From the NCBI RefSeq assembly GCF_001467695.1, contig NZ_LNYE01000001.1, forward strand, positions 30,168 to 94,167: a stretch of 64,000 nucleotides of DNA. Reading direction: 5' to 3'. The notes under the pieces were generated by a model. The model was not told the DNA's origin and made no database searches. It was given only the letters and a program-made list of their open reading frames with translations. Source of the stretch: Legionella gratiana (lineage in GTDB: Bacteria > Pseudomonadota > Gammaproteobacteria > Legionellales > Legionellaceae). Positions 19,133 to 45,576 of this stretch are shown one piece after another; position 1 is the first letter of the stretch; each line of letters begins with the position of its first letter. The position numbers and the translations under genes are program-made.

Positions 19133-19357
19133 TTAATGAGTCTGTACGCCCCGTGCTTCCTTCCACTGACCAGGCTTATTTAAAAACAGAGATTGTTCTT
19201 TTTTAATTTTTTGATGTATTTCCTGACGATGAATAATTACATCTTGTGGTGCATCGAACCCTAAGCGGACTTGATTACCCTTAACACCGAGCACGGTGAT
19301 ATAAATGTCATCATTGATTAGTACGGTTTCGCCTATTCTACGTGTAAGTATTAACAT
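19133..19357 (-). CDS. csrT: CsrA-family RNA-binding regulator (LvrC/CsrT type)
   Basis: A 74-residue protein with the full CsrA fold: [12 protein letters not shown] at the N-terminus, VRLGFDAP in the middle, and VIIHRQEI carrying the arginine that contacts GGA motifs in RNA. CsrA proteins repress or activate translation by binding 5' leaders. Legionella conjugative elements are known to carry such paralogues beside lvrA and lvrB. It lies between the lvr genes and traT in the same direction, so tra mRNA leaders are plausible targets. GGA-containing ribosome sites are frequent in this operon. Confidence 0.93.
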
Positions 19358-19376: not shown

Positions 19377-19580
19377 TTAGTGAATTGAATATTCTTTTTT
19401 TTGTGAATCAATCTCGAATCGAAGCGCTTCGCATGCCAATCGTGCCTCCATTGCAATGTGCCAGAAATCGCATTCAGGGATTTCCTGATAGGCCAGAGCT
19501 AATGACTCAGAGCAGGCGTTTAAAAGACAGTACAGCTCTTCCTTTGTAAACAGTTTTAAACATGGAATTTGTTTCATCAT
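19377..19580 (-). CDS. Small protein of the lvr cluster, function unknown
   Basis: A 67-residue product if it starts at 19580, where ATGATG overlaps the stop of the lvrB-like gene; an upstream start at 19652 would lie inside that gene. The product is rich in leucine, cysteine and glutamate and predicted to be helical (FTKEELYCLLNACSESLALAYQ). I recognise no domain. Coupling to lvrB and 19 bases of spacing to the csrA-type gene place it within the regulatory operon. Confidence 0.68.
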   Translation of the reverse strand: MMKQIPCLKLFTKEELYCLLNACSESLALAYQEIPECDFWHIAMEARLACEALRFEIDSQKKEYSIH

Positions 19581-20251
19581 GCAACTCCCAATAACTGGCG
19601 AATTTTCGCAAGGTGTGTTGTTGCAATGTCTTTTGATTGAGGCAAAGTGCACAGCACCTTCTCTTTAATTTCCGGGATCTGGTGTCCTTGTCTCATTAAA
19701 TGACATACCCGTTCATATGCCTCTTTAAATACTGCAAAAGAATGGCCTTCATTATCAATTTCCAGAAATTTAAGCCCCAGTCTTTTGGCAGTAAATTTAA
19801 CCACTGCATGACTCCAGTTTGGGTTCGTTGAATAAGCGCTGTTTAAAACCTCCCTATGCGCCTCGGCAGCAGAAGGCAGGCGCAAATCACTATAAAAGCC
19901 AAGACACAAAGCTCGAAACTGCAGGCAATTGGGTGGAAATTCACAAAACTTGTCGCCTTTACTCAATGTCATTAATCGCTCCACACCACTGTCTAATGCT
20001 TTTGGAGTTAAATCTTTAAGTGCAGCAAACCAAACTCCTGTATCATTCACTCCATGCTTACTGATAAAAAGTTGCCCGTATATTGCAGTCAGCTTCATCC
20101 AGAGGCTGGACAAGTGTTCCTTCGATAAATGAACCGGAGTTGAGTTCATTGCCTGAGGTGTCCCAGAGTGAGTCGATTGAAATGCCATGATGTTCGCTGA
20201 CTCGCTCAAGTGCTGTTTGGTTAAGAGTGCTTTGATTTGTACCACGCTCAT
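19577..20251 (-). CDS. lvrB: LvrB-like protein (replication-P-like domain)
   Basis: A 224-residue protein. The stretch LWMKLTAIYGQLF...WFAALKDLTPKALDSGVERL resembles the lambda replication protein P family found in LvrB-like proteins of Legionella elements. The start at 20251 has the best ribosome site (AAGGAG, eight bases away), but it implies a 194-base overlap with the end of the lvrA-like gene. ATGs at 20149 and 20098 would shorten the overlap but have weaker sites. Function is unproven; the lvr genes are associated with control and mobility of conjugative elements. Confidence 0.75.
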   Translation of the reverse strand: MSVVQIKALLTKQHLSESANIMAFQSTHSGTPQAMNSTPVHLSKEHLSSLWMKLTAIYGQLFISKHGVNDTGVWFAALKDLTPKALDSGVERLMTLSKGDKFCEFPPNCLQFRALCLGFYSDLRLPSAAEAHREVLNSAYSTNPNWSHAVVKFTAKRLGLKFLEIDNEGHSFAVFKEAYERVCHLMRQGHQIPEIKEKVLCTLPQSKDIATTHLAKIRQLLGVA

Positions 20252-21041
20252 TGTGATGACTCCTTAATTGTCCTTGTGCCTTTTGTAGTTGTTTTTGCAT
20301 GTATTGGGCATCTCGCTCAAGCCAGTTAATGAATACTGGATTAAAGTCAGCCCATAGAGTGTTTTGTTTTTTGTTGTGCTTGATAAACGCCTGAATTTCT
20401 TCTTTGTCAGTTACTTTGGTTAGTCCCATGGAAAATGCCATTTCGATGGTTTTTGTGTTTGGGTAAAAGTCATCGCAAATTGGTTTTTTGCTGCAACAAA
20501 AATCATTGCTCGCAATTTCAGTTTGTTTGTTTGAGTTAGTTATATTAAATATATTAATATTCTTTGCAGAGCTCTTTAGTGTGTTAGCTTCTCTGTTAAC
20601 TTCTATGTTAGATTTTCCCTCTGAATCTCCTTCTCTATCAGAATCTATAAGGGATTTAGGTGAATTAAGATCTGTGTTAACTTCTTTCTTTATAATCAAT
20701 TGATTATAGATCTTAGGGACCTCTGGGAATATAAATTTTAAATTTTGCCCTTCAGTTATAACTTGAAAGTATTCGCTACACTCATGTTCTATAGACTTTA
20801 TGAAATTTCTGATGGTTTGCTTAGATGGAACACCACTGTTGATTCGACCTGGAGCGGTTTTAATCTCTAAGGATCTTGATAGATCACGATAACTAATGTC
20901 AGATACAATTCCCGTAAGAGGATTTGCAAGATTTAATAGTTCATAAATAATTAATCTAGGACCATAGGGTAATAATTGAAACTTTTTTTCTATTTGTTTC
21001 CTAGCATTAATGTATAACTCAACATCAAACTTCATCAACAA
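20058..21041 (-). CDS. lvrA: LvrA-like regulatory protein
   Basis: A 327-residue protein with a winged-helix-like N-terminal region (LPYGPRLIIYELLNLANPLTG...SYRDLSRSLEI...SKQTIRNFIKSIE), a low-complexity linker rich in Ser/Asn, and a C-terminal helical part with FINWLERDAQYMQKQ. It fits the LvrA type found first in the lvr operon of Legionella elements, divergent from a repressor gene. The 230 bases between them hold palindromic sites. A start two codons later (21035) is equally possible. The function is inferred from position: control of the downstream tra genes. Confidence 0.75.
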   Translation of the reverse strand: MLMKFDVELYINARKQIEKKFQLLPYGPRLIIYELLNLANPLTGIVSDISYRDLSRSLEIKTAPGRINSGVPSKQTIRNFIKSIEHECSEYFQVITEGQNLKFIFPEVPKIYNQLIIKKEVNTDLNSPKSLIDSDREGDSEGKSNIEVNREANTLKSSAKNINIFNITNSNKQTEIASNDFCCSKKPICDDFYPNTKTIEMAFSMGLTKVTDKEEIQAFIKHNKKQNTLWADFNPVFINWLERDAQYMQKQLQKAQGQLRSHHNERGTNQSTLNQTALERVSEHHGISIDSLWDTSGNELNSGSFIEGTLVQPLDEADCNIRATFYQ

Positions 21042-21106
21042 ATCCTTTTATTTATCTAATTTATTAGATAAGACTATCAGCCAATGGTAAAAATTACAAT
21101 AATTTT

Positions 21107-21231
21107 TTTACCATTAAGGTAAATTTATAATGATTTGTCATACCTAATATGCTATAACGCATTGTATTTTGATGTTTTTTATACTATTTTTTTGGTAAAT
21201 TCTTACGAAGATTTATTAACCATTTTGGTAT
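21107..21231. promoter_or_regulatory. Divergent promoter region with repeated ACC-N5-GGT palindromes
   Basis: Between the lvrA-like gene (minus) and the repressor gene (plus) lie two palindromes of one type: TTTACC-ATTAA-GGTAAA at 21107-21123, with perfect six-base arms, and AACC-ATTTT-GGT around 21219-21229. Further related half sites are AATGGTAAAAA at 21083-21093, which pairs with the inverted TTTTTACCATT at 21105-21115, and GGTAAAT at 21194-21200. This layout suits a dimeric XRE repressor controlling both directions. The link to the adjacent repressor is inferred from location. Confidence 0.62.
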
Positions 21232-21270: not shown

Positions 21271-21921
21271 ATGAGCAATCCTGTAATAGACAATGTTTCA
21301 TCCCCCGAGTCTCGGGGCAAGAGAATAAGATTCATACGCGAGCATCTCCTGTCTTTTACACGAGAAGATTTTTGTCGCGATTCTAATTTTACTGCTCAAT
21401 CATTAAAAGGATGGGAATTAGCATGGGGAGGAGGTTTATCCCAGCAGGGGGCTGTAAAAATCGTTAAACGAGCTAAAGAGTTAAATATTTATTGCACAGA
21501 ATCATGGTTAATGCATGGCATTGGTAAAAATGCCACAAAAATCACAAAAGATTTAGATATCCAAGAGGGTGACGAAAGCCACATAGCTAAAGAATTACTA
21601 CTATTCAGAGAACTACAACACTCTATTGACACCGTTATAAAAGATGATGGCATGATCCCTCTCTTATACCCTGGGAATTATGTTGGCGGTATAATAGTCA
21701 ACAACATTGAGAGTGCCATTGGCAAAGATTGTATTATTATTGCGGACAATGATGAAGTATTTGTCAGGATCTTAAGGCATGGACAAGAACCAGCTCGCTA
21801 TGACTTAGTTTGTTTAAATGAAAAAACTACATTAGTGAAAAAAGAAATAAAAAATACCGCCATTAAATTTGCAGCCCCAATTGTATGGATCCGCAGAATA
21901 TTTCGAGAAAATAATTACTAA
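21271..21921 (+). CDS. XRE/S24-like repressor lacking the self-cleavage residues (LvrR position)
   Basis: A 216-residue protein with an N-terminal helix-turn-helix (about residues 14-72) and a C-terminal LexA/cI-type domain (DDGMIPLLYPGNYVGG from residue 125). In active family members the DSM motif holds the catalytic serine and VK the catalytic lysine. Here these positions read DGM (Gly127) and VR (Arg166), so autoproteolysis looks impossible and SOS-type induction unlikely. No good ribosome site precedes the ATG. The stop shares one base with the next gene's start (TAATG). Position opposite lvrA suggests it represses the lvr-tra block. Confidence 0.85.
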   Translation: MSNPVIDNVSSPESRGKRIRFIREHLLSFTREDFCRDSNFTAQSLKGWELAWGGGLSQQGAVKIVKRAKELNIYCTESWLMHGIGKNATKITKDLDIQEGDESHIAKELLLFRELQHSIDTVIKDDGMIPLLYPGNYVGGIIVNNIESAIGKDCIIIADNDEVFVRILRHGQEPARYDLVCLNEKTTLVKKEIKNTAIKFAAPIVWIRRIFRENNY

Positions 21922-22814
21922 TGAAAGCTTACAAAAAAGATATTTTGCCACATCAAGAATTTTATATAATCAGATTTACTAAAAGCTCGAGTCTACCTTA
22001 TGCTCTTTTCATTCATGGTGGCCCTGGTCTCAATTGTGGAACCATAGAGTATCTTATTGATCATCATAATTTATTTAATTCTCTCCAGTGCAATATTATT
22101 CTGTATGATCAACGAAATTGCGGTAAATCTAATAAAATTAAAAAGTTAGTATTACAGCAAGATAATATAAATGATTTGCAAAAAATAATTCTATACCTTG
22201 ATGACCATTTTAATCTTAACATCCATGCTTTGATTGGACATAGTTATGGTGCAAAACTTCTTTTTGATTACTACAAAAATTATGAGTCGACCATCCCTGG
22301 TGTTTTTGTTTCTACCGCTCAATCAATACTAACACCTCGTTTGAATAATTTAATGCTAGACCTATCCTATCTGAAAAAAAGTAATTTAGAGTTATATAAC
22401 AAAATATTAAATGAAATTAATAATCTTGACCTTAATAAAATCTGGGAACTATCAGAACAATTAACTCCAGTTTTCCAAGAAAATAAAGACAGACCTTATT
22501 TATATTGGGCCAATTTAGAATATTATAATTTGGTTCAAAATGCACAGAAAAAGATCAATCTACCATTGGATATGAACACGTTTATCAGTGTAAGAAAAGA
22601 TCTTTATTCAAAAGAAGCCAATTTTTCTGTTAATATTAATGAGCTTAAAATACGTAAATTATGGATAAATGGTTTTCACGATTTTGTCATGAACGGACAC
22701 CAAATAGCATTGTCGAACATTCATGAAATTATAACTTTCAATAAATCGTCTCACTACCCACATCTAGAAGAGAATGATCGTTTTAGTGAGCTTTTAAATG
22801 AATTTATTAAATAG
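21921..22814 (+). CDS. Alpha/beta hydrolase of the proline iminopeptidase type
   Basis: A 297-residue cytosolic protein without a signal peptide. It has the oxyanion motif HGGPG (residues 32-36) and the nucleophile elbow GHSYG with Ser108. The late acidic residue is in WINGFHDFVMNGH and the catalytic histidine in KSSHYPHLEE near the C-terminus. HGGPG is characteristic of proline iminopeptidases and related hydrolases that act on peptides, amides or esters. It overlaps the repressor by 1 base and the binding-protein gene by 17. In this setting it may make, modify or remove the signal sensed by the downstream proteins; that is inference. Confidence 0.85.
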   Translation: MKAYKKDILPHQEFYIIRFTKSSSLPYALFIHGGPGLNCGTIEYLIDHHNLFNSLQCNIILYDQRNCGKSNKIKKLVLQQDNINDLQKIILYLDDHFNLNIHALIGHSYGAKLLFDYYKNYESTIPGVFVSTAQSILTPRLNNLMLDLSYLKKSNLELYNKILNEINNLDLNKIWELSEQLTPVFQENKDRPYLYWANLEYYNLVQNAQKKINLPLDMNTFISVRKDLYSKEANFSVNINELKIRKLWINGFHDFVMNGHQIALSNIHEIITFNKSSHYPHLEENDRFSELLNEFIK

Positions 22815-23889
22815 CTCTAAGGCAATCATCTTATTGTTTTCTATACTAATATCCCCTGTTGTTCACGCACAATCTAAAATTAAAATATGTTTGACCGGTA
22901 GGATTGTAGAAAATTTAAAATCATATGGTCAGTCTTTTTTAAATGCAGCATATCTTGCCAAAGAAGAAAATGATCTCTCTAACAAAGTTGTGATTAAGAG
23001 TTATTTTTATAATAACAGACCATTGGAGCCAATGCATATTTATAATCAAATGGTAAATGACTCTTGCTCTGCAATTATTGGGTTTGAATATCTATCAGAC
23101 TTGTTATTAGCTGTAAAAGAACAGAAAAATGACACCATTCCTATTTTTACTTCCTACGCTAGCACCACCAACTCTGATCAATTACCTAAGAATATTTTTA
23201 TCTTTATGCCAAGCTATAATTACCAAGCTGAAAAAATGATGAGCTACTTACATGAGCGCTATAAAAATATAAACAACGTGTTGCTTATAACGGAAATTAA
23301 CCGTGATGAGATGCTAAAGTATAAGGAAGTGTATTCCAGCATTCTAAAAAAGGAACACGTACAATATTCTACATTTGATTTTCTAGAAAATGACAGCGAT
23401 ATAGAGGGAAAATTGAGCATTTTTTTGAATGAACGAAAATATCAATATGTTTTTTTATTGTCAGGTGCAATAGCATCAGCAAAAATTGCCAATATTATGA
23501 ATAACCATAGCACTGTTTTTATTGGCACAGAAAACTTTGGTTCTTCAGTTAGTCAAACATTTTTTATGCGACTAAATGATAAAGTAATTCACTCTCATTT
23601 TATCCGCAATTTAGATTTTATACAGCCCTATGATGCTTTAACTAAATTTGAAAATATTTATATTCAAAAATTCCATGAAAAACCCACTGTATTGGCAGCA
23701 TACACTTATGATTCGATGAAGATTATTTTGAAAGCATTGAATAGAACCGGTATCGTCAATACAAACAGCATATTAAGTACTGATTATATTGGCATTACCG
23801 GGGCTTATTTAAATAATGGTCAATTTTATCGATCGACCAATTACGTTATTTTATCAGTTAATAGCAATGGATATGCTTATGAAAAATAA
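22798..23889 (+). CDS. Periplasmic ligand-binding protein (type I fold, Leu/Ile/Val-binding-like)
   Basis: A 363-residue protein with a signal peptide cleaved near VVHA-QS, then a two-lobed type I periplasmic-binding fold (KIKICLTGRI...SFLNAAYLAKEEN; AIIGFEYLSDLLLAV; VLAAYTYDSMKIILKAL). Such proteins deliver small ligands either to ABC importers or, as with LuxP, to a membrane kinase. No permease or ATPase gene is present, and the next gene, overlapping by 11 bases, is a histidine kinase. So it probably serves as the sensory subunit. The ligand is unknown. Confidence 0.85.
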   Translation: MNLLNSSKAIILLFSILISPVVHAQSKIKICLTGRIVENLKSYGQSFLNAAYLAKEENDLSNKVVIKSYFYNNRPLEPMHIYNQMVNDSCSAIIGFEYLSDLLLAVKEQKNDTIPIFTSYASTTNSDQLPKNIFIFMPSYNYQAEKMMSYLHERYKNINNVLLITEINRDEMLKYKEVYSSILKKEHVQYSTFDFLENDSDIEGKLSIFLNERKYQYVFLLSGAIASAKIANIMNNHSTVFIGTENFGSSVSQTFFMRLNDKVIHSHFIRNLDFIQPYDALTKFENIYIQKFHEKPTVLAAYTYDSMKIILKALNRTGIVNTNSILSTDYIGITGAYLNNGQFYRSTNYVILSVNSNGYAYEK

Positions 23890-25984
23890 AAGCTCTTCAA
23901 TCAAAGCAATTTTTATCAAGAAAATGGCATATTCTGCTCTAATCCAATTTATTATTTTTGGATTTATACTCATGCTTGCAAAAGATTATTTTCATAATCA
24001 GATGAGTGTCTTTTCCAGAAATTTAATTATTAATGACTCATTTACCACTGATGAAATTGGTAGATATCAGCTTCTTAATAATAAGGATGCTCTTGATTTA
24101 GTCCTATACAATTTAGGTAATGAACGCAAACTAGACTCAATAAAATTTGTTCCTTTAAAAAATAAAATTGAAGATGTAGGTACTTGCGAAGAAAACAGCA
24201 AAAATAATTACCTTCTATGCAAAAAAGATAATGGGCAAATTTCCGGTATAACATTAATTAAAAATGATGAAAAGATATTGGGCTCGGTGGTTGCAAGTAA
24301 GCAATATAATTCTATCTATACTTTGCCAGTGTCCTATGGGCTTTTGTTAATTTTATTGATCGTACTTGGAATATTTCTTTTTAATTTCTTATTTCTATTC
24401 CTTTCTATGAGAAAAAAAATAGCAAACAATACCGAATACTTGCTTGATTTTATTTCATCACATCAAAGTAATAATGCTGTTGATTTTGCAAAAGTTGAAA
24501 TTAATGAATATAGACAAATTGCTAATAAATTTATTGATGAACATCGAGAAATAATCAATTTACAGAAAGAAAAAGCCTATTACGAGGTAAGAAAAAATAT
24601 TGCTGAGCTTGTTGCTCACGATATCCGATCACCATTAGCGGCAATAAACACCGCACTATCAGATGTAACATCGATTCCTGAAAATAAACGCATTATGATC
24701 AGAAATGCAGCTAAAAGAATCAATGATATTGCTAATAACCTACTCTTACAATCTAAAAATAATTTGCTTGACTGTAAAAGTAGTGAAATATATATGAATA
24801 ATTCTCCAGAATTAATATTTGTAGTTTTAGATAATATCGTTGCAGAAAAAAGATATGAATATTACGCAACCAAAATCCAAATCAACTTACTTGGGTCCGA
24901 CCACTCATATAATTGTTTTTCTAAGATACACCCTGATTCTTTTAAGCGCGTTCTATCTAATCTCATTAATAATGGTATTGAGGCAGTTAATTCTAATGGC
25001 TCTATTATTATCTCTCTAACATGCAATACTACGCATGTCGAAATTATTATTGAAGATAATGGCTGCGGCATTCCTCCCGATATCTTGCCAAAGGTTACAG
25101 AGCAAGGATTTAGCTTTAATAAGAAAACTGGTGCTGGTTTTGGTTTATCTTATGCTAAACAATATTTAGAGCAGATCAATGGTTCAATGCATATTCACTC
25201 TGAAGAAAAAGTTGGGACAAAAATTCATATCACTCTAATTAGGTCTAACCCCCCTAGTTGGTTCTGTGACTCAATGAATATTAGGTATGGTACTAATATT
25301 GTCGTATTAGATGACGATATATCCATCCATGACGCATGGAATGAACGGTTTTCAAATATTTCACACGTTAAAATGTTTCATTTTTATAACGCGATCGACT
25401 TAGTTCAGTATAAAGTTGATCCAAAAACTCCAATATTATATTTAGTGGATTATGAGTTGCTCGCTGATATTAAAAATGGTTTAGATGTGATTGAAGAGCT
25501 TAATTTAAATGGTAAAGCTATTTTAGTTACCAGTTGCTTTGAAGATATTGCTATACGAAATCGATGTGAAAATATTGGCGTTAAAATCATACCAAAATCT
25601 TATGTACCTTATATTAAAATTATTGAGACTCCAGAGAAAGAACTTATAAATACGGTGGTTTTTATTGATGATGATGAAATGATGCGAATGACTTGGATCT
25701 TTGCGGCTGAAGAGGCTGGACAAAGTATTTCAACCTATTCGTCATTTGATGAGTTCGTAAATGAAATAAATAATTATTGTAAGAATACTCTTATTTATAT
25801 TGACTCAGATCTAGGAAACAATGTTAGAGGCGAGGATTGCGCAAAACTCCTTTTTGATAAGGGGTTTATTGACGTTCATCTTGCCACTGGCCATTCGCGA
25901 GATCGATTTCGCCAAGTGCCATGGATTAAAACAATTGTTGGTAAAGAGCCACCTTTTCAATTTGCACACGGGAATTCAACATGA
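23879..25984 (+). CDS. Membrane hybrid histidine kinase with two C-terminal receiver domains
   Basis: About 701 residues from the ATG at 23879; other in-frame ATGs lie at 23873, 23867 and 23816. Two transmembrane helices (about 15-34 and 151-176) enclose a ~115-residue periplasmic domain. Next come the H-box AHDIRSPL (His247), the N-box LINNGIEAV, DNGCGIP and GAGFGLSYAK, so the kinase core is complete. Two receivers follow: VVLDDD...LVDYE (Asp524) and VFIDDDE...YIDSD (Asp642 or 644). There is no DNA-binding domain. The overlap with the binding-protein gene suggests a LuxPQ-like receptor pair feeding a phosphorelay. Confidence 0.9.
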   Translation: MKNKSSSIKAIFIKKMAYSALIQFIIFGFILMLAKDYFHNQMSVFSRNLIINDSFTTDEIGRYQLLNNKDALDLVLYNLGNERKLDSIKFVPLKNKIEDVGTCEENSKNNYLLCKKDNGQISGITLIKNDEKILGSVVASKQYNSIYTLPVSYGLLLILLIVLGIFLFNFLFLFLSMRKKIANNTEYLLDFISSHQSNNAVDFAKVEINEYRQIANKFIDEHREIINLQKEKAYYEVRKNIAELVAHDIRSPLAAINTALSDVTSIPENKRIMIRNAAKRINDIANNLLLQSKNNLLDCKSSEIYMNNSPELIFVVLDNIVAEKRYEYYATKIQINLLGSDHSYNCFSKIHPDSFKRVLSNLINNGIEAVNSNGSIIISLTCNTTHVEIIIEDNGCGIPPDILPKVTEQGFSFNKKTGAGFGLSYAKQYLEQINGSMHIHSEEKVGTKIHITLIRSNPPSWFCDSMNIRYGTNIVVLDDDISIHDAWNERFSNISHVKMFHFYNAIDLVQYKVDPKTPILYLVDYELLADIKNGLDVIEELNLNGKAILVTSCFEDIAIRNRCENIGVKIIPKSYVPYIKIIETPEKELINTVVFIDDDEMMRMTWIFAAEEAGQSISTYSSFDEFVNEINNYCKNTLIYIDSDLGNNVRGEDCAKLLFDKGFIDVHLATGHSRDRFRQVPWIKTIVGKEPPFQFAHGNST

Positions 25985-26208
25985 ACTCTACGGATAAAGA
26001 TAAATTAAAACACGATTTTTTAAACTCAATTGTTATCATCAACAGCATGACAAAATCTGCTTCGAGTTTCATGAATACAATTTCACAGTCAATGGATACC
26101 GTCGATATTAACCAAAAGCAGATGGAAAAATTTTTATATTCTATGAGCGCTATACGTGAGCAAACTTCAAAGATTGAAAATTATTTTTTATCTCTTTTTA
26201 ATGAATAA
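25981..26208 (+). CDS. 75-residue helical HDxxN protein, candidate phosphotransfer protein
   Basis: This small gene overlaps the kinase stop (ATGA). The product has KHDFLNSI at residues 10-17 (His11, Asp12, Asn15), followed by amphipathic helix to the end. HDxxN at the start of a helical hairpin recalls the Spo0B-type and other dimerisation/phosphotransfer helices, where the histidine is phosphorylated. There is no ATP-binding domain. In an operon with a kinase that has two receivers, and beside a separate response regulator, it could carry phosphate from receiver to regulator. The homology is not proven: 75 residues and one motif are thin evidence. Confidence 0.7.
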   Translation: MNSTDKDKLKHDFLNSIVIINSMTKSASSFMNTISQSMDTVDINQKQMEKFLYSMSAIREQTSKIENYFLSLFNE

Positions 26209-26218
26209 TTGTGACAAA

Positions 26219-27211
26219 TTATCTCTCTGCTAGATATGAGGAATATGAAACCACCCTTCCCCAATCTATAGAATCAGTTAAATGATCTTTGGTAATACTG
26301 TAGTAGTAATTGTTATCTAGCTTTTGCGCATCAAATAAATAGTTAATCCACTCAGCTATTGGTTTTTTATATTCTTTTTCTGATAACAAGAATAATATTT
26401 TCTCTTTTTTTGTAACAGCGGCCATGGTCTGTTCGGGTAGCTCATATCCCCGCATTAAATCTAATTGATCTGACAGCTCTTTTACGTGTCTAAGGATAAG
26501 CCATGTAGGTTTGGCGTCTTTGTCAAGAAATAAAAAACTACCTGAGTTATCAACTAGATAATACTCAACAGCCTGTGCTTGTATTAGAACACTAGCAAAT
26601 AATTTTTGATATAATTCATTATCAAATAAATTATTAATGGAGTTTTCATACGCATTAACTATATTTTTTGTTAACTCTCTGAAATAGCGCTGAGTTAGGT
26701 CATCCACAGCTAATGTAATTTCTGGATATAGATTTTCACTTGTCTTGAGTATAAATTTATCAATTAAACCGTGATTGAAAGCTTTTATCGCAGTATCTTT
26801 ATCTGCTTCAGCCGTTAGCATAATTTTAAAGATTTTTTTCTCTTTAATTTTTTTGCAAAATTCAATTCCGTTAATACCGGGCATTTGATAGTCCACAACT
26901 AACAATGGTGCATTCTCAAACCTTGCTTTATGATAAAGCTGATTTAACATGTTACTAACATCAAAGCCAATAACTCGATCATTAGTAGTATCTAAATTCA
27001 CATCATTCATTAATTTGAAAATTGATTGGGTGATATCTTGACAATCGTTATCAATAAGATGAAAAGCCATATCTGAGCTTGTAAGTGTTAGTATATTAAA
27101 CTTTTGGCCAAATTCTAAATCTAACGCATCCAAAAATGCTCTGTTATCATCTAAAAAAATGACTTTTATCGGATGATAAAAACAGGTAGGTCTTGCATCA
27201 ATAATAGTCAT
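26219..27211 (-). CDS. Response regulator with extended receiver and unknown output domain
   Basis: A 330-residue protein convergent with the kinase operon, 10 bases from its end. The receiver shows FLDDN (Asp21/22), VVDYQMPG (Asp107), MLTAEA and the lysine in FILKTSE. Asp107 lies 85 residues after the acidic pair, about 40 more than in CheY, so there is an insertion between the second beta strand and the phosphorylation site. The C-terminal 180 residues contain YLVDNSGSFLFLDKDAKPTWLIL and no helix-turn-helix that I can see. A ribosome site (AGAGGAA) precedes the ATG. It is the likely final acceptor of the neighbouring relay. Confidence 0.85.
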   Translation of the reverse strand: MTIIDARPTCFYHPIKVIFLDDNRAFLDALDLEFGQKFNILTLTSSDMAFHLIDNDCQDITQSIFKLMNDVNLDTTNDRVIGFDVSNMLNQLYHKARFENAPLLVVDYQMPGINGIEFCKKIKEKKIFKIMLTAEADKDTAIKAFNHGLIDKFILKTSENLYPEITLAVDDLTQRYFRELTKNIVNAYENSINNLFDNELYQKLFASVLIQAQAVEYYLVDNSGSFLFLDKDAKPTWLILRHVKELSDQLDLMRGYELPEQTMAAVTKKEKILFLLSEKEYKKPIAEWINYLFDAQKLDNNYYYSITKDHLTDSIDWGRVVSYSSYLAER

Positions 27212-28897: not shown

Positions 28898-29812
28898 ATG
28901 AAAGTAATTACAACAGCCGGAAACAAAGGAGGGATTGGCAAATCAACTATTGCTCTCACTCTTGCACAATATCTAGCTAAATGTAAAAACATGAAAGGGG
29001 CCTTTATCGATTTAGACCCACAAGGCAACTCTTCATCTAGCTTAATTCCGACTACAAGAGATCCAGCTCACCCAACTGGTTACATGCCTAAAGCACATCC
29101 AGAGTGGGATCCAAACAACTTACCAGAAGATGATCCTCATTGGGATGGAGTTAGTAGTATTGCAGATATATTCATAGGTAAATCTATTTATCCATATCCA
29201 ACATGGGTTGACAATTTACATTGTTTTCCTTCTTTTGCTTCATTATTGGAAGATGCACAACGTGTTCTAAAAGTTGATGTAAAAGAAAAGGTTATAAATC
29301 GTCTTAAAGAATTTACCGAAATGCTATCAACCCACAGTGATTACCAATTTGTTATTATTGATACGAATCCACAGTTTGGCCCACTAACAATGGCAGGGTT
29401 GCGAGCAGCAACTCATGGACTATTGCCAACTGAACTTGAACAATATGGTATTAATGGAACCATAGGCATGATCCAAGCAATTTCACAAGAGCAACTTAGA
29501 AGAGTGAAAGACGATACTATTAAAATAGCGGGAATTTTACCTAACCAAGTTCGTAAAACAGCAGTACATACTAAGTTCCTTAATGATTTGCGTTCAATAG
29601 AAAAATCAGAAGAATGGTTATTACCTCCTATAGCCCAAAGAACCATTTATTCAGAATTGGTAGTAGAGGATGCAAAACCTAATTGTGTATTTAACTTACC
29701 ACAAACACATCTCGCTAGAATTGAAAGTGAGAAATGGTGCTCTTATGTATATGACAGGGTATTTCATAATGTATACAACAAAATAGAAGAAAAGGAGGCT
29801 TCCTATGGTTAG
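28898..29812 (+). CDS. parA: ParA partition ATPase
   Basis: A 304-residue protein beginning KVITTAGNKGGIGKST, the deviant Walker A motif of ParA/MinD ATPases (residues 9-16), with FIDLDPQGNSSSS (A' motif) and IIDTNPQFGPLTMAGLRAA (Walker B region). There is no N-terminal helix-turn-helix, so it is a type Ib-like or short ParA in which the partner does the DNA binding. It segregates the replicon over the nucleoid with ParB. The gene overlaps the downstream parB by 8 bases. Confidence 0.93.
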   Translation: MKVITTAGNKGGIGKSTIALTLAQYLAKCKNMKGAFIDLDPQGNSSSSLIPTTRDPAHPTGYMPKAHPEWDPNNLPEDDPHWDGVSSIADIFIGKSIYPYPTWVDNLHCFPSFASLLEDAQRVLKVDVKEKVINRLKEFTEMLSTHSDYQFVIIDTNPQFGPLTMAGLRAATHGLLPTELEQYGINGTIGMIQAISQEQLRRVKDDTIKIAGILPNQVRKTAVHTKFLNDLRSIEKSEEWLLPPIAQRTIYSELVVEDAKPNCVFNLPQTHLARIESEKWCSYVYDRVFHNVYNKIEEKEASYG

Positions 29813-30830
29813 TAAATTCAAACTGAATTCAGTTAAAACTGGAGAGACAAAGGATGCCATATCAAGAACACTGGCAATTGCCAATGATTATGCTGGGGAA
29901 CTGTCAATAGAAGTATTGTCCTTAGATAAAATAGAACTTGATCCGGAAAACAATCGTGAACTAGCACTAACACTTCATGATGCAATAAATGGAATAGATC
30001 CCTCTGATCCTGAATATACAAAAAAGAAAAATGATTGGAAATCGCTTGAGTCATTAGCAAAAACTATACTAGATGATCAGTTAATTAACCCCATATTTGT
30101 ATACAGATTTGGGAACAAATGTCGTTTAATCGCTGGTGAACGTAGAACCTTGGCCTCAGCGATTGCCGGTAAAAAGGAAATTATAGCAAGAATTGCAAGT
30201 CAACGACCTGTTGGTTCAAAGTTAAGAGTTCTACAGTGGATTGAGAATAATGAGCGTGTAGACTTATCTCTGGCTGAAAGAGTTGCGAGTATTGAGGCTA
30301 TTGTTAAAGAGTATTTAAACGAAAATAAAGAAAAAAGTGATAGCGAGAAAATAACATCAAAAGTATTAAGTGATTTAACGGGAATGTCTATAACACAATC
30401 TCGAAGATATATTCTGATTTTGCAAGCTAGTCCAGAGATAAAGCAGGCGATTGCTGAAGGAAAAATAGAGAATGTAAAATTAATTGAATTAATTATTTCA
30501 GTTGAAAACGCAGAACATCAACAAGTTCTCTTAAAGGCAGCCATAGAAAATCTATCCTTTGATGCAATTGTAAAGCTAAAAAAAGAACTTGAATTTTCGT
30601 TAGTTACAAAAAAAGAAATAAGAGGACGTAAACAATTAAATGTTAGTTTAGGTAAGGTAAAACCCAATATTGCCAAAATTATCTTTGATGCCTTAGTTTC
30701 AAGCAACATTCTACACGAGAGCATCGTCGAGCAAATGAATATGTTAAGCAATAATGTCCAATGGAATAATGGTAAGTCAGTTGAGGAGTGCTTTAAAAAA
30801 ATAATTCCTCTAATTGCTCAGGAAGTGTGA
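29805..30830 (+). CDS. parB: ParB-family partition protein (first copy)
   Basis: A 341-residue protein with the ParB/Srx nuclease-fold motif CRLIAGERRTLASAIAGKKEI (about residues 106-126), NNERVDLSLAERVASIEAI, and a helix-turn-helix region (SKVLSDLTGMSITQSRRYILILQAS). An acidic N-terminal segment of about 40 residues may contact ParA. It is translationally coupled to parA. The motif is GERRT rather than the usual GERRxRA, and the gene is clearly different from the second parB at 32416, so it may bind a separate centromere site. Confidence 0.9.
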   Translation: MVSKFKLNSVKTGETKDAISRTLAIANDYAGELSIEVLSLDKIELDPENNRELALTLHDAINGIDPSDPEYTKKKNDWKSLESLAKTILDDQLINPIFVYRFGNKCRLIAGERRTLASAIAGKKEIIARIASQRPVGSKLRVLQWIENNERVDLSLAERVASIEAIVKEYLNENKEKSDSEKITSKVLSDLTGMSITQSRRYILILQASPEIKQAIAEGKIENVKLIELIISVENAEHQQVLLKAAIENLSFDAIVKLKKELEFSLVTKKEIRGRKQLNVSLGKVKPNIAKIIFDALVSSNILHESIVEQMNMLSNNVQWNNGKSVEECFKKIIPLIAQEV

Positions 30831-30835
30831 TTAAA

Positions 30836-31207
30836 ATGAATAAGCTGAAACTCAATAATAATGAAGACGATAAGAAAATTATTACATTTACTATTAATAA
30901 AGAAATTAAAGAGTCACTCAGAGAAATTCTGTTAAATTCTGAAAAATATAATTTAAAAAAGAAAACTGATTGGGTAAACGAAGCCATCATAATGTTAAAG
31001 GAAAATCCTGATTACAAAGAAATGGTACTCAATGCAGAAGGGAATAGTGAAAATTTCGTATTTGATAAAATTTATATGACATTTAAGCAACGATGTTTTT
31101 TTTCTGATATGAGAAATGAAGTTGTAAAGGAATATCCTGATATAAGAGGCCCTCAAACTGCCATAATACGCGCTGCTATTTTGAGTAGAATGATGAGGAA
31201 AAAATAA
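30836..31207 (+). CDS. Small basic protein of the par-rep operon, possible ribbon-helix-helix protein
   Basis: A 123-residue protein starting at ATG 30836, with AGGAAG ten bases upstream; a GTG at 30827 is an alternative. It is very lysine-rich. The segment KIITFTINKEIKESLREIL...KKKTDWVNEAIIML has the strand-helix-helix pattern of ribbon-helix-helix DNA-binding proteins. It sits between parB and rep. A copy-number or partition regulator is plausible. I do not recognise a named family. Confidence 0.7.
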   Translation: MNKLKLNNNEDDKKIITFTINKEIKESLREILLNSEKYNLKKKTDWVNEAIIMLKENPDYKEMVLNAEGNSENFVFDKIYMTFKQRCFFSDMRNEVVKEYPDIRGPQTAIIRAAILSRMMRKK

Positions 31208-31232
31208 GAAAAAAGGCCAAACGGAATGGGTA

Positions 31233-32414
31233 ATGTTCGCTGAAAAAACAATACGTAAACATGTAACAATTATTCATGCATACTCTTTAATGAGTGTATT
31301 GCAACGGAAAATTGTCAATGTGCTTTTGTATGAAGCAATAAAAGGAGATGGTCGCATAAATAACCATCAAAATTCGGTCGCTGTCGAATGTAATATGCCT
31401 TTTTCTAAGCTGTTAAAAGCAGTCAAGTTTAATAGTAATAATACCCAATATCTAAAAGAGTCCATTGATGGGTTGGCATCATTAAAAATAGAATGGAATT
31501 TATTGAAAGATAAGGTACCTACAGATATCTCGTTTTTAAATTTACGAGTTTTACATGGTGCGCCTACGTTCTATCAAGATAATACCATCAATTTTTCTTT
31601 TCATAAAATCATGCTTGATTTACTAGTTAATCCATCTATATACGGTACAATCGACGTTGATCTGCAATCTGAATTTGAATCGAAATATGGTCATGCTCTT
31701 TATGAAAATAGTACACGGTTTATTAACTTACAAAAAAATAAAATTATTTCATTAGATACATTTAGAAAAATTTTAGGAGTTCCTGAAGATAAATATCCAA
31801 GTATGCGGGAACTTACAAGAAATGTCATTTCGCCCTCATTAGAAGAGGTTAATGATCGAGCTAATTTTGCTGTTAGCTTGGATCCAATAAGAGTTGGTAG
31901 AAAAATTACTGGATTTGAGGTTCTAGTTAAGAACAAAAAAAATACAATAATATCAGAAGTCAGCTGTATTGATCGTGAAAATGAGCAGATACATAAAGAA
32001 ATAAAATCAACTTTTGGCATATTAAATGAGTCAATATTAGAAAATATTATAAATAACTACTCAGAAGAGTATATTCAAGAGAAGATTAACTATACCAAGA
32101 AATATGCAAAAAAAGAGCGGACAGGTTTTTATCCTATCCCATATTTTATTAGCGCCTTAAAACACGATTATAAATTTAAGGAAGAACCTAAGCCAGAAGT
32201 TTCTCAAGAAAAAGCATCTAATGATGAAGCTGAGTGGGAAAAGAAATTATTCGCTTTACAGGCAGAACTCAATCATTGGGAAAAACTATCAGGATATACT
32301 AAAGCTGGAGATAACCAAGAGCATGTTAAAAACATGCAGAAATTTGTTCTAGAAGCCCAAGAAAAATTAAAGCAACATTATTTAGAGAAGCCAATTAAAA
32401 TGGAGGCGGTTTAA
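31233..32414 (+). CDS. rep: Rep_3-family plasmid replication initiator
   Basis: A 393-residue protein with the Rep_3 pattern: an N-terminal winged helix (IHAYSLMSVLQRKIVNVLLYEAI) and second winged helix (ESKYGHALYENSTRFINLQ...LDTFRKILGVPEDKYPSMRELTRNVISPSLEEVN). The second part, with KYxSxxELxxxVIxPxxxEI, is diagnostic of iteron-binding initiators such as RepE and pi. A charged coiled C-terminal tail adds about 80 residues. It follows the par genes in the same direction. Iteron-like repeats lie 2.5 kb upstream, farther than the usual adjacent arrangement. Confidence 0.9.
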   Translation: MFAEKTIRKHVTIIHAYSLMSVLQRKIVNVLLYEAIKGDGRINNHQNSVAVECNMPFSKLLKAVKFNSNNTQYLKESIDGLASLKIEWNLLKDKVPTDISFLNLRVLHGAPTFYQDNTINFSFHKIMLDLLVNPSIYGTIDVDLQSEFESKYGHALYENSTRFINLQKNKIISLDTFRKILGVPEDKYPSMRELTRNVISPSLEEVNDRANFAVSLDPIRVGRKITGFEVLVKNKKNTIISEVSCIDRENEQIHKEIKSTFGILNESILENIINNYSEEYIQEKINYTKKYAKKERTGFYPIPYFISALKHDYKFKEEPKPEVSQEKASNDEAEWEKKLFALQAELNHWEKLSGYTKAGDNQEHVKNMQKFVLEAQEKLKQHYLEKPIKMEAV

Positions 32415-34655: not shown

Positions 34656-35114
34656 ATGAATACACTCATCGATGCAGCAATAAAATATCTTTCGAATCAT
34701 TATTGCAGTGAAATAGAACTCATAAGGCAATTGGAGAGGGATTTTTCGCATGTGCCCGAGTTAGATGCTCAGATTCATGCAACCCTAGCTCGCCTTCGGG
34801 AATTACATTTAATTAATGATAATCGTTTGGCTGAATCATTAAGTGCCCGTTATATCCATAAAGGAAACCGTTTTATTCAAGAAATATTAAAACAGAAGGG
34901 CGTTAAAGAAGAAGTGATTGAGCAAGTCTTAGAACATATTGAACTGGAAGATGTTCGCGCCCTGGATGAAGCTCGGAAAAAAATGCGTGGATTTAAGAAT
35001 GAGACAGATGAGGCAATAAATACAAAATTGGCTCGTTTCTTAAGTGGTCGAGGTTTTTCTCATGCCACGATAAAAACTGTACTTAAACAGTTAAGTGAAG
35101 AACAGACTACTTAA
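34656..35114 (+). CDS. recX: RecX-family regulator of RecA
   Basis: A 152-residue protein with the three tandem helical repeats of RecX: AIKYLSNHYCSEIELIRQLERDF, LRELHLINDNRLAESLSARYIHKGNRFIQEILKQKGV, and KLARFLSGRGFSHATIKTVLKQL. RecX binds the RecA filament and blocks strand exchange. In many bacteria recX lies next to recA; here recA is not in the window and the gene sits beside a recombinase, so it looks like a plasmid-borne copy that could dampen RecA activity during transfer. Confidence 0.9.
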   Translation: MNTLIDAAIKYLSNHYCSEIELIRQLERDFSHVPELDAQIHATLARLRELHLINDNRLAESLSARYIHKGNRFIQEILKQKGVKEEVIEQVLEHIELEDVRALDEARKKMRGFKNETDEAINTKLARFLSGRGFSHATIKTVLKQLSEEQTT

Positions 35115-35196
35115 CGTTTTAGATAGTGTAGCGGATGAATACAACAATCATTTGCATCTATAAGAAAAGAAAACTGTAAATTAAACTCTGAATGAA

Positions 35197-35718
35197 ATGA
35201 TAAAGTTACAACGTATCATGATTATTGGTAGACCAGGAAGTGGCAAGTCCACTTTTTCTGTTATGTTGCAAAAGAGTCTAAATATTCCATTGTTCCATTT
35301 AGATAAATATTTTTTTATTGCCGATTGGGTGCCACGAGAATATGAGAATTTTTTGTCACTCCAAAAAGAATTAGCTGCTAAGCCTTGCTGGATTATTGAT
35401 GGTAATTCCAGCAAATCATTTGAGATACGTTATCGCGAAGCCGATATGTGCTTGTACTTTAATTTACCCAAGTGGCTATGTTATTGGCGGGTATTTAAGC
35501 GCTTGTTTTATAAGGCTTCAGAAATTGATGATAGAGCCGCTGGTTGCAATGAAACGGTCCGATGGTCGCTATTAAGTTATATGTGGAACTATGAACAACG
35601 GATTAACCCTTTATTAAATGTCTTAAAGAACCAATATCCAAAAGTGAAATTCATTGAACTCCGTAGCCCATATGATGTGGCGCACTTGATGCGTGTGCTT
35701 AAACATAAAGAAGAGTAA
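35197..35718 (+). CDS. P-loop nucleotide kinase-like protein (FlaR/topology-modulation type)
   Basis: A 173-residue adenylate-kinase-like protein with Walker A GRPGSGKST (residues 10-18), LDKYFF, and WIIDGN, the pattern of proteins annotated as DNA topology modulation protein FlaR-like. No lid domain is seen. The substrate is unknown. It is the first gene of the long accessory block that runs to 58849. The P-loop is intact. Confidence 0.82.
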   Translation: MIKLQRIMIIGRPGSGKSTFSVMLQKSLNIPLFHLDKYFFIADWVPREYENFLSLQKELAAKPCWIIDGNSSKSFEIRYREADMCLYFNLPKWLCYWRVFKRLFYKASEIDDRAAGCNETVRWSLLSYMWNYEQRINPLLNVLKNQYPKVKFIELRSPYDVAHLMRVLKHKEE

Positions 35719-35742
35719 AGTATTGTGACAGGATTTTAATAA

Positions 35743-36879
35743 ATGATGCCGACGAATATGATAATACTCTTGATGGGTATTGCAGGTACCGGTAAAAAAA
35801 CCATAGGCGAGGCAATTACAACGCTGGCCCCTCAGTTTCGATTAGCGCATCACCATGCTTGGATCGATCCGGTTCTAAAACTTTTAGGTAACGATGCTCA
35901 AGTATTTTGGTCTCTTGATGATAAAGGATGGGCAGCGCTTAACAAAGCTCGTGATGTGATTTTTGATACGATGACTGCGGTTTGCTCTAAAGAAGCGAGC
36001 TTTGTTATTACCTATGAGCTCTTAGCGAATAATTCTTGGCATCAGGAATTTTTTAATCAAGTACAAACCGTTGCTCAAAAACGGGGAGCTGTGTTTGTTC
36101 CTATCCGACTGATTTGTAATGGTGCAGAGCTTGTTAAACGCTTAAAAGACTCAGATAGAAAAGGCTATTTTAAAACACAAGATGAGGCGCTTATTACAAA
36201 AAGATTGTTTGAAGAAGACGTTTATTTTAGCAAAGAGCCGTATGAAATGACTCTAGATGTGAGCCTCCTTTCAGCAGAGGAGTCAGCGCGTTGTATTTTG
36301 GATTGGACTTCCTTAGTTTATGGGAGTAAAAATCAGAATCTGGAATTTAAACCATTGAGTCAAAAAGATTTGAACTTAATGACCCAATGGTTTGCAGAGC
36401 CTACAGTGAAACAAGGGTATGCACGAAATCAACAGTTTTCTTTGGAAGATATTAGGGCAAAGTACTTACCCCGCATTGAAGGCATGGATCCAGTCCCGAG
36501 TTTTATTATTTATTTGGATCAAAAACCAATTGGTTTTATTCAATATTACTGTCTTGCCGACCATTTACCCGAAGGAATTTCAGGACATAATGCTTCCTTG
36601 TTTGACAAGGCTACACCTGAACAATTGGCTGGTATCGACCTTTTTATTGCAGAGCCATCGTGTCGTGGAGTAGGGTTGGGTAGACAAATTATAAGGCATT
36701 TTATTGCAAAACAACTCTACAGATTTAAAGCCGTTGTCGTTGATCCTCAAATTGGAAACGAACAAGCCATAGCGTGCTATCAAAAGGCTGGTTTTGTTCC
36801 CACGCAATACAGTGAAGATCCCAATTACCTACTCATGATAAACATGCTTACTTATAGAGGGTCCCATGAATATTCTTGA
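35743..36879 (+). CDS. P-loop kinase-like domain fused to a GNAT acetyltransferase
   Basis: A 378-residue two-domain protein. Residues 1-185 are a P-loop phosphotransferase-like domain (MGIAGTGKKT). Residues about 200-378 are a GNAT domain of the aminoglycoside 6'-N-acetyltransferase-like type (FKPLSQKDLNLMTQWFAEPTVKQGY; LFIAEPSCRGVGLGRQIIRHFI holds the acetyl-CoA site). The combination suggests acetylation and phosphorylation of related small molecules. Resistance to a particular drug cannot be claimed. The end overlaps the next GNAT gene by 14 bases. Confidence 0.82.
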   Translation: MMPTNMIILLMGIAGTGKKTIGEAITTLAPQFRLAHHHAWIDPVLKLLGNDAQVFWSLDDKGWAALNKARDVIFDTMTAVCSKEASFVITYELLANNSWHQEFFNQVQTVAQKRGAVFVPIRLICNGAELVKRLKDSDRKGYFKTQDEALITKRLFEEDVYFSKEPYEMTLDVSLLSAEESARCILDWTSLVYGSKNQNLEFKPLSQKDLNLMTQWFAEPTVKQGYARNQQFSLEDIRAKYLPRIEGMDPVPSFIIYLDQKPIGFIQYYCLADHLPEGISGHNASLFDKATPEQLAGIDLFIAEPSCRGVGLGRQIIRHFIAKQLYRFKAVVVDPQIGNEQAIACYQKAGFVPTQYSEDPNYLLMINMLTYRGSHEYS

Positions 36880-37432
36880 AACTCCCCGTCTGATTTTACG
36901 AACATGGCAGGAAGCTGATCTTGATCCTATGGCACTTATTGATCAAGACAAAAAAGTATGCCAATTTTTACCAGGAATAGGGAGTAAGAGTGCTACAAAA
37001 GCAGGCATTGAGCGGATTATTGCACATTATAAAGAGAAGGGATTTTCTTTGTATGCTGTTGAACTGAAAAGTACAGGGGAAATGATAGGATTTTTAGGGT
37101 TAATGACCCCTTCTTTTGAAGCGGACTTTACTCCCTCTGTTGAAATCGGCTGGAGACTTTCCTCAACACATTGGAATCAGGGTTATGCTACGGAAGGAGC
37201 AAAAGCAGTTTTGCATTATGCCTTTACCTCTTTAAATATTCCCGAAGTAGTTTCATTTACAACAGTGAATAATCTAGCTTCAAGACGTGTTATGGAAAAA
37301 ATTGGTTTACATCACAATACCAAGGATGATTTTGACCATCCCAAATTGGAGCCTAATAGTCCCTTGAGACGACATGTGCTTTATCGATTATCCAGGGCTG
37401 ATTATCTAAACAACAAAGGTATTCAAGCATGA
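36866..37432 (+). CDS. GNAT acetyltransferase, RimJ/RimL type
   Basis: A 188-residue protein beginning with LETPRLILRTWQEADLDPM and containing VEIGWRLSSTHWNQGYATEGAKAVLHYAFTSL, the hallmark of the RimJ/RimL N-acetyltransferase family. Substrates in the family range from ribosomal protein N-termini to antibiotics. It overlaps the genes on both sides (14 and 4 bases), so the three form one translation unit. Confidence 0.88.
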   Translation: MNILETPRLILRTWQEADLDPMALIDQDKKVCQFLPGIGSKSATKAGIERIIAHYKEKGFSLYAVELKSTGEMIGFLGLMTPSFEADFTPSVEIGWRLSSTHWNQGYATEGAKAVLHYAFTSLNIPEVVSFTTVNNLASRRVMEKIGLHHNTKDDFDHPKLEPNSPLRRHVLYRLSRADYLNNKGIQA

Positions 37433-38382
37433 TTTGGGAGATCACGTTAAAAAAAATTACGGATACAACAGCGAACCATGCGGCGCAAAAATGGGTAAAA
37501 AACCCTACCCATCTTAAGCTTATCAATAATCAAATTAACTGTGTTTATCGATTTGAATCTAATGGACAAGGATTTTACCTACGCATGACGCATGAAAAAA
37601 TACGAAAAGCTCGCGAACTTTTGAGTGCCATTGATTTTCAGAAGTATTTATTTTTGTGTGGTACGCCTATTTGTGAACCGGTGGTATCTCAAGAAGGAAA
37701 TGATGTTGAAACTGTGCACCAAGAGGATTTGGAATTTTTTGTTCATGTTTGCCGGGAGGTACCAGGGCAAATCATGCATTTTGATTATTCAGATAAAAAA
37801 GCTTATCTAACATGGGGAAGGGCTCTAGGGCTATTGCATCAAGCCTCGCAAAGTTATGTTGCAGAGAAACATCACTTTTTAACTTGGGAAGATTTGTGGC
37901 GTGAGACTTTGGATTATGCGCGTCAAGAAGAGTCCTTGATTCAGGATTTATATGAAACGATTACGACACGCTTCAAAACTTTTTCAATCGACTCATCTAA
38001 TTTTGGCCTAACCCATGGGGACCATCGTCCTGGAAATGTGCTTTATGATGGTGAGAGCGTTCATCTGATTGATTTTGATGAGCCAGTATATCATTGGTAT
38101 CTTGCCGATATTGCCAAACCTTTTTTGGACTTATGCAATAAACCATGGCCTCTCTGGCAACCACTGTTTGAATGGTTTATAGAAGGATATAGGCAAATCC
38201 GGCCATTGAGCTCAGAAGAATTAAAAGAAGTGAATCATTTTTCGCAAATGAAAAGCTTAGATATCTACCTCTGGTGTAAATACAACTGGTTTGAAGAAAC
38301 AGCTCCAGGAGGAAAGCCAGGGGATGAATGGCTTCATGACTTAAAAACTATGGCATTAACCCCTTTGTTTTATGTGCCATAA
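37429..38382 (+). CDS. APH-like phosphotransferase
   Basis: A 317-residue protein of the aminoglycoside phosphotransferase / choline kinase-like superfamily. The catalytic loop is THGDHRPGN and the metal-binding aspartate is in LIDFDEP. A C-terminal helical substrate lobe follows. The family phosphorylates small hydroxylated substrates, including aminoglycosides, homoserine and macrolides. The specific substrate is unknown. It is coupled to the upstream GNAT gene and convergent with the XRE-cupin gene. Confidence 0.87.
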   Translation: MIWEITLKKITDTTANHAAQKWVKNPTHLKLINNQINCVYRFESNGQGFYLRMTHEKIRKARELLSAIDFQKYLFLCGTPICEPVVSQEGNDVETVHQEDLEFFVHVCREVPGQIMHFDYSDKKAYLTWGRALGLLHQASQSYVAEKHHFLTWEDLWRETLDYARQEESLIQDLYETITTRFKTFSIDSSNFGLTHGDHRPGNVLYDGESVHLIDFDEPVYHWYLADIAKPFLDLCNKPWPLWQPLFEWFIEGYRQIRPLSSEELKEVNHFSQMKSLDIYLWCKYNWFEETAPGGKPGDEWLHDLKTMALTPLFYVP

Positions 38383-38398
38383 CCGATTAAGGGAACTC

Positions 38399-38962
38399 CT
38401 ATTGAGGTGGGTAATGAATAATATCATGGATGCGCGATAGCTCATTGGTTGGATTTCGGTAGCCATGCGGTTGATTGGCATTAAAACGCAGTCCTTCTCC
38501 TTTGGAAAGTGATTTCCAGAACCTACCTAACAAAATTTCAATGGTTCCATCCACAACAATGACATGCTCAATGACTCCATGTTTATGAGGAGGTGAAAGA
38601 TGTTCGCATCCGGGCAATAACTCAATAACAAACAATTCAAAATGTAGCTGTTCATCAAAAGGAAACAGAGGAAGTACTCGTATTTTTTCATCATCTGGAT
38701 GCAAAGTTTCAGCATGCCCTGTTCTATAAATAGGATTGGTTGAATCATCCAGACTGTCTTCAATAAACGATGAAAAGGAGGTTTGAAAGCCGCTCGCAAT
38801 TTTCCATAGGGTAGAAATCGTTGGGCTTGACTCTTCGCGTTCAATTTGCCCAAGCATCGCTTTAGAAACGCCCGTTTCAAGCGCTGTTTTATCTAAGCTC
38901 CAACCTCGATCTTGTCTTAATGATTTTAGTATTTTTGCAATGCGGTTTGAAATTTCTTGCAT
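38399..38962 (-). CDS. XRE-cupin transcriptional regulator
   Basis: The start at 38962 follows AAGGGA, giving 187 residues; the frame opens at 39004 but that part covers an operator. Residues 1-65 form an XRE helix-turn-helix (LDKTALETGVSKAMLGQIEREESSPTISTLWKIASGF); residues about 105-187 are a cupin (HLSPPHKHGVIEHVIVVDGTIEILLGR), with histidines that could bind a metal or ligand. Proteins of this design (PuuR/SutR type) are usually ligand-responsive repressors. It is divergent from the DUF2000-YbaK-AlaX genes with two palindromes between. Confidence 0.9.
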   Translation of the reverse strand: MQEISNRIAKILKSLRQDRGWSLDKTALETGVSKAMLGQIEREESSPTISTLWKIASGFQTSFSSFIEDSLDDSTNPIYRTGHAETLHPDDEKIRVLPLFPFDEQLHFELFVIELLPGCEHLSPPHKHGVIEHVIVVDGTIEILLGRFWKSLSKGEGLRFNANQPHGYRNPTNELSRIHDIIHYPPQ

Positions 38963-38983
38963 TATGTCCCTTATTAAAAAAAG

Positions 38984-39013: not shown

Positions 39014-39022
39014 GGTTTATTA

Positions 39023-45575: not shown

Positions 45576-45576
45576 A

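Follow-up and report, generated by a model that had tools for sequence, protein, structure and literature searches.

A putative modular LqsR-type signalling cassette on conjugative Legionella plasmids

What does a set of genes for signal reception do behind a repressor-like gene that faces the transfer genes of a plasmid? To our knowledge, little is known beyond prpA/lvr about what switches Legionella conjugation on, and the question is raised by a 64,000-nt stretch of DNA from Legionella gratiana (hereafter the window), which is part of a 94-kb contig in a genome of 3.9 Mb. The gene set sits on an F-type conjugative Legionella plasmid of approximately 150 kb. It comprises a repressor-like gene (REP), a hydrolase (HYD), a periplasmic binding protein (SBP), a hybrid histidine kinase (HK), a 75-residue histidine protein (HDN) and a response regulator of the LqsR family (RR), and its relatives were followed through a survey of 143 Legionellaceae genomes (related loci carry L-numbers and genomes G-numbers). 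As judged from sequence comparison, the cassette may sense an extracellular or periplasmic small molecule and signal through the kinase, a relay and the LqsR-family regulator to time plasmid transfer, a proposal whose chances we regard as even. On conjugative elements, LqsR-type signalling thus appears in a modular form that seems new and that possibly serves quorum sensing; no paper on it was found within one open-access library.

Linkage of the gene set to the repressor-like gene

The preliminary description of this DNA had listed five plus-strand genes that overlap end to start and one gene converging on them, and all were recovered at the same coordinates. REP (21271-21921) and HYD (21921-22814) share a single base, HYD and SBP (22798-23889) share 17, SBP and HK share 11 when the kinase start is taken at 23879 (a longer open frame begins at 23816), and HK (23879-25984) and HDN (25981-26208) share 4; RR (26219-27211) lies on the minus strand. 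RefSeq starts on an identical plasmid agree with these overlaps. All four are repeated in L062, whose proteins are 76–90% identical to those of the window, and L063 retains only those of 17 and 11 bases. Between 20950 and 27400 no terminator-like site was found on the plus strand; two were found, both on the minus strand, versus 2.6 expected. We infer that the plus-strand genes are probably co-transcribed.

The order of the genes is far beyond chance, since the same 5.9 kb recurs at 99.9–100% identity on four named plasmids of 143–150 kb, from L. sainthelensi, L. longbeachae (two) and L. anisa, all four of which are typed as conjugative. In the L. sainthelensi plasmid, which is typed MOBF and MPF_F, the repressor gene points away from lvr-like genes, the gene of a CsrA paralogue, that of TraT and a tra operon of the F type. 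A plasmid of L. lytica shows 73% identity over 37% of the length and is typed as non-mobilizable.

That the module is tied to the repressor facing the lvr and tra genes had also been claimed, and here the survey agrees. An LqsR-family regulator lies within 15 kb of close repressor homologues (at least 61% identity) at 24 of 30 places, near 5 of 10 intermediate homologues (27–37% identity) and near only 3 of 44 distant relatives, the three sharing a single genome that has many such genes, so that close homologues are mostly linked rather than scattered (Fisher's p 7e-11 for close versus distant, many of the 30 being near-identical copies). When sequences are grouped into lineages by our own grouping, repressor and regulator are linked in 10 out of 14. 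Four lineages remain: the contigs of L185 and L184 are just 3 and 9 kb long, L061 has its regulator on a different contig, and the genome of L183 yielded no regulator. The genes of L041 and L042 are inverted or re-ordered and are still together. Taken singly, REP is matched in 55 of the 143 genomes (distant relatives counted), HDN in 29 and SBP in 25. One genome (G132; L144, L145 and L146) holds many regulator copies or fragments, some of them beside more distant repressors or a CsrA paralogue.

RR itself is homologous to LqsR over its full length, output domain included: residues 8–329 (322 residues) align with residues 27–352 of PDB entry 6sy9 at E 3e-41. Its receiver domain is recognised by Pfam (Response_reg, E 2.7e-11) and carries a VDY acceptor motif aligned with that of 6sy9. 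We take 6sy9 to be L. pneumophila LqsR; its sequence closely resembles, by eye, the regulator of L187, which adjoins LqsA- and LqsS-like genes. RR falls in a supported mobile-element clade, separate from chromosomal LqsR. No LqsA synthase or LqsS-type kinase is annotated around the cassette. The L. gratiana genome (G000) has relatives of LqsA at 28% identity only, and besides the plasmid copy no LqsR-family protein occurs among the matches listed (to E 3.8e-5), which suggests that this genome owes its sole LqsR relative to the plasmid. The cassette shares with the Lqs system, and with PhcX, a regulator homologous over receiver and output domains, and differs from the Lqs system in its separate clade, its place on conjugative elements, the lack of LqsA, the presence of HDN, and hybrid kinases with a binding protein instead of LqsS/LqsT. 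A move of the LqsR family into a different quorum system in Ralstonia (PhcX) is reported in PMC10653808. Further relatives, 20–27% identical, are found on plasmids of Dyella, Rhodanobacter, Burkholderia, Massilia and Polaromonas; a kinase adjoins them on the Dyella and R. thiooxydans plasmids and not on the Massilia plasmid. On plasmids of Dyella and Rhodanobacter (L195:6719-8975, L196:6632-8975) the regulator gene stands directly downstream of a HAMP kinase gene, near PRTRC-type genes. With this cassette, mobile elements would become a second home for regulators of the LqsR family.

A kinase core with exchangeable front ends

The kinase had been described as a hybrid with two receivers, and this holds: it has two transmembrane-like segments, a DHp domain with H247, a CA domain, and two receiver domains that Pfam detects weakly and that retain their motif residues, acceptor Asp included. 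Comparison with its relatives indicates that the core is constant and the sensor exchangeable across related elements. Three kinases that are 65–79% identical over the DHp and ATPase domains carry unrelated multi-span sensors. The kinase of L038 matches that of the window at 73, 79 and 69% over DHp, CA and REC1, and at 24% over a forced alignment of the sensors; that of L063, which has the front end of the window, reaches 71% over the sensor and 65% over CA. The L038 sensor depends on an 841-aa open frame, and the RefSeq start, 181 residues later, would leave approximately four spans.

Sensor type and neighbouring genes go together. Thirteen of 15 two-span kinases (2–3 spans by a crude hydropathy count) are directly beside a binding-protein gene, whereas none of nine multi-span kinases was seen with a binding-protein gene of its own (L143 is cut by a contig end) and seven of the nine have a GNAT gene adjoining or in the same gap; these kinases were chosen from the loci in hand, not at random. 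The front-end genes compared are those between the repressor and the kinase core, or near them. In the window they are HYD and a LivJ-type protein with a two-span kinase; L041 and L042 have this set plus a short-chain dehydrogenase, assigned from its place and likeness and, in L041, checked against Pfam. A GNAT gene with a multi-span kinase is found in L038, L137, L138, L139, L129 and L184, and an arylformamidase-like cyclase with a multi-span kinase in L141, which also has a GNAT gene, and, with a kinase remnant, in L144. Two-span kinases are joined by an S9 peptidase and an SBP_bac_5 protein in L128, L131 and L133, and by an ATP-grasp protein, an MFS protein, a MetX-like hydrolase and an ANF/LivJ-type protein in L045. 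Different front ends on related elements are the pattern expected of element-specific signals, and they would provide a ready-made set of natural sensor exchanges around a single kinase core. At L040:5378-8781, L066:8502-11905 and L067:458-3978 the kinase of the HYD–SBP–HK trio has 457–498 aa and stops short of the receiver domains or close to them.

HYD is an alpha/beta hydrolase in which no signal peptide was seen by eye. The proline-iminopeptidase type assigned to it earlier survives as a likeness, the curated family cut-off being far from reached (52.8 versus 167.65 bits). Its HGGPG (H32-G36) and GHSYG (G106-G110) motifs are invariant in 11 rows, as are D254 and H278/H281; we take these to be the HGGPG box, the Ser-elbow, the Asp and the His of the S33 family. 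SBP begins with a signal-peptide-like stretch and belongs to the type I, LivJ/AmiC fold class, with amino-acid, amide and hydroxybenzoate binders as its nearest folds. Its comparison with LuxP was wrong by family: the sequence matches are to LivJ-type proteins, no binding-protein model other than Peripla_BP_6 gave a match at E up to 1, and the only PDB matches of its profile at E 0.001 are LivJ/LivK-type chains, so that by sequence SBP falls outside the LuxP/ribose-binding family of type I binding proteins and is no LuxP-type receptor. In LuxPQ-type pairs a periplasmic binding protein works with a hybrid kinase without a transporter and with LuxU/LuxO output. The cassette resembles them in that outline, and differs in its LivJ/AmiC-class protein and in an LqsR-type output instead of LuxU/LuxO.

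HDN is plausibly a minimal relay. H11 and N15 of its H[DE]xxN box are invariant in 18 of 18 rows, and it is predicted to fold as a hairpin of two helices (pLDDT 91.6), which makes it a candidate free-standing DHp or phosphotransfer protein; searches gave no significant sequence match. Spo0B/ChpT-like and other free DHp phosphotransfer proteins are known, and HDN resembles them in carrying the His of an H[DE]xxN box on what is predicted to be a hairpin of helices, and differs in its 75 residues, the lack of an ATPase-like domain and the lack of a significant match. In loci of a distant type (L045, L129 and L132), proteins of 93–102 aa with HFIRTP boxes are encoded near the regulator. They do not match HDN of the window; their match is to the DHp domain of LqsS-like kinases encoded on chromosomes (94% by hhalign, E 1e-7). 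No comparable small protein was seen in L128 (frames of at least 60 residues) or in L131 and L133 (at least 70). Two unrelated small His proteins beside LqsR-type regulators lend indirect support to a relay role, and if two distant systems each have a free-standing DHp-like protein of 75–100 residues next to such a regulator, these would be phosphorelay proteins of a very small kind. At L042:6309-7184 HDN is fused to an arylformamidase/cyclase-type enzyme (PF04199), a direct physical link between relay and enzyme, and L132:8431-11686 holds two LqsR-type regulators, an LqsS-like, kinase-like protein of 261 aa and a free-standing LqsS-type DHp protein.

The repressor-like gene and its operator-like dyad

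How might a signal reach the transfer genes? REP stands in front of the lvr genes and of a CsrA paralogue gene that precede tra, and is divergent from them, which is the position of the prpA/lvrR gene in prpA/lvrR-lvrABC. That module is described ahead of Legionella transfer systems in PMC3864950, PMC3218107 and PMC4256840. On the minus strand of the window the first lvr-side gene is a 327-aa frame at 20058-21041 (RefSeq start at 21035), followed by lvrA-like (19577-20251, RefSeq start shorter) and lvrB-like (19377-19652, RefSeq frame end at 19580) genes, both named by position and from the preliminary description, and by an lvrC-type CsrA paralogue (19133-19357, Pfam CsrA E 9e-24).

REP had been called an XRE/S24-like repressor. 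The S24-like part stands as a weak C-terminal match (E 0.017, below the Pfam cut-off); for the other part, no Pfam HTH model was matched at E up to 1, whereas the S24 repressors of L132 and L178 match HTH_3, so that the word repressor itself stands for a presumed role. At what we take to be the position of the catalytic Ser, placed by alignment with an S24 protein (L132:6043-6702, Pfam S24 E 1e-11), REP has Gly, and G, C, A, S or T occurs across 16 aligned rows without conservation. On this count REP does not fit a self-cleaving S24 repressor of the PrpA/LvrR type. Since the serine is missing, SOS-type self-cleavage as in phage-like repressors is probably impossible and an external input would be needed. 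The lack of that serine in this copy and the position at the head of a putative signalling operon set REP apart from the prpA/lvrR-lvrABC module of PMC3864950 and PMC3218107. L132 and L178 each have both an S24/HTH repressor and a relative of REP. Distant REP relatives also stand beside or opposite apparent small-molecule biosynthesis clusters, judged by eye, at L130:827-10784, L178:10358-17511 and L179:3991-12179, with ketosynthase, ligase, SDR and aminotransferase-like genes and with an LqsR-type regulator present or absent.

Between the lvr genes and REP lies a 31-bp operator-like dyad, ATGGTWAAA-N13-TTTWACCAT (21084-21114, no strand), approximately 50 bp from the annotated lvr-side start. 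It is the sole match in the window at up to two mismatches (0.09 expected). When up to three mismatches are allowed, 16 of 18 loci with the window's repressor type have it 145–158 bp ahead of the repressor start (a count that takes in the window and excludes near-identical copies), and none of four distant-type repressors has it nearby; the 383 kb of loci scanned gave four further matches elsewhere, one beside csrA in L137. Of the 16 rows, some of them near-identical, 13 have a symmetric inner W pair (A/T in seven, T/A in six), and L041 shows a compensated G/C change in an outer pair. The dyad seems tied to the repressor, because L041 and L042 retain it although the far side of these loci gave no match to lvr or tra genes. 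A second conserved block, ACCATTTTGGT (21219-21229, no strand), repeats the half-sites in the opposite arrangement close upstream of REP; in the alignment it reads CTCCATTGGT in L063–L065 and CTCTATTGGT in L038.

Possible roles of the module

If the cassette times transfer in answer to a small molecule, its parts could work as follows. The LivJ/AmiC-type protein would bind a ligand, perhaps one made or destroyed by the hydrolase, and contact the periplasmic loop of the two-span kinase. Phosphate would pass from His247 of the kinase to its receiver domains and on to the LqsR-type regulator, with the 75-residue His protein as a shuttle. The regulator would relieve the repressor, either by itself or by way of host physiology and LvrC, the CsrA-type protein, and the repressor would sit at the dyad approximately 50 bp upstream of the lvr-side start. 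The scheme thereby puts forward a specific candidate route by which a sensor could act on the repressor, together with a candidate operator. Pheromone or quorum control of conjugation is known from TraR and from enterococcal PrgZ-type systems; the idea of signal-timed transfer is common to both, and the relatives L128, L130, L131 and L133 have an OppA-class binding protein, whereas the predicted phosphorelay with an LqsR-family regulator and exchangeable sensors is different.

A plausible sensor, a hybrid kinase, a small His protein and a response regulator of the LqsR quorum-sensing family are all present, as had been proposed, but the phrase complete circuit has to be given up, since no signal synthase was recognised in the window and front ends vary between elements. 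The missing synthase also weighs against signal-timed transfer itself and makes quorum sensing one reading among others; quorum or peptide control of conjugation is here a hypothesis. Copies that are interrupted or in pieces (L043, L049, L060, L142 and NZ_CP045305) and the occurrence of the HYD–SBP–HK trio without repressor and regulator (L040, L066 and L067) count against signal-timed transfer as well. Together with cores that have no hydrolase and binding protein (L038, L137, L138, L139 and L141), these trios speak for a constant core whose front ends can be exchanged and against a single fixed circuit. A bolder version, which we think rather unlikely, is that the elements speak dialects: each lineage would have its own signal-making or signal-editing enzyme and matched receptor on a shared back end (kinase core, mini-DHp relay, LqsR-type regulator and a non-cleavable repressor at a conserved operator), and each element would count its own carriers and time its transfer by them.

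The same absence of an identified synthase would suit sensing of nutrients or of the host environment, in which SBP binds an amino acid or aromatic acid in amoebae, the hydrolase merely processes substrates and transfer follows the growth state of the host. The nearest folds of SBP and an iminopeptidase-like hydrolase without an evident signal peptide fit this as well, yet a common nutrient would not need front-end enzymes that vary between elements together with the sensor type, and the regulator comes from a quorum-sensing family; we consider it a serious but doubtful alternative. Manipulation of host behaviour seems unlikely. Here the plasmid would give an LqsR-type regulator to hosts that have none and alter growth phase, competence or stress, with transfer control secondary or absent, which agrees with the single listed LqsR-family match and the distant LqsA relatives of L. 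gratiana and with L. longbeachae, where LqsS/LqsR are missing according to PMC2824747. However, other carriers (e.g., G062, G066, G052, G078 and G105) do have a chromosomal LqsR, and the linkage and the dyad tie the module to the repressor. Finally, a two-component cassette may have come by chance to lie beside the repressor and under its promoter, as cargo with no role in transfer. Trios without the core and decayed copies would be expected of cargo, but the linkage of repressor, kinase, HDN and regulator persists over 61–100% repressor identity, through varied front ends and rearrangements, and a second, distant set repeats the combination, so we hold this to be quite improbable.

Downstream of the cassette the plus strand encodes ParA, a ParB-like protein and a RepB-type initiator (28898-32414), a backbone that marks the element as a plasmid. 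Beyond it, window positions 34656-48798 hold many acetyltransferase, phosphotransferase and tRNA-editing-like cargo genes.

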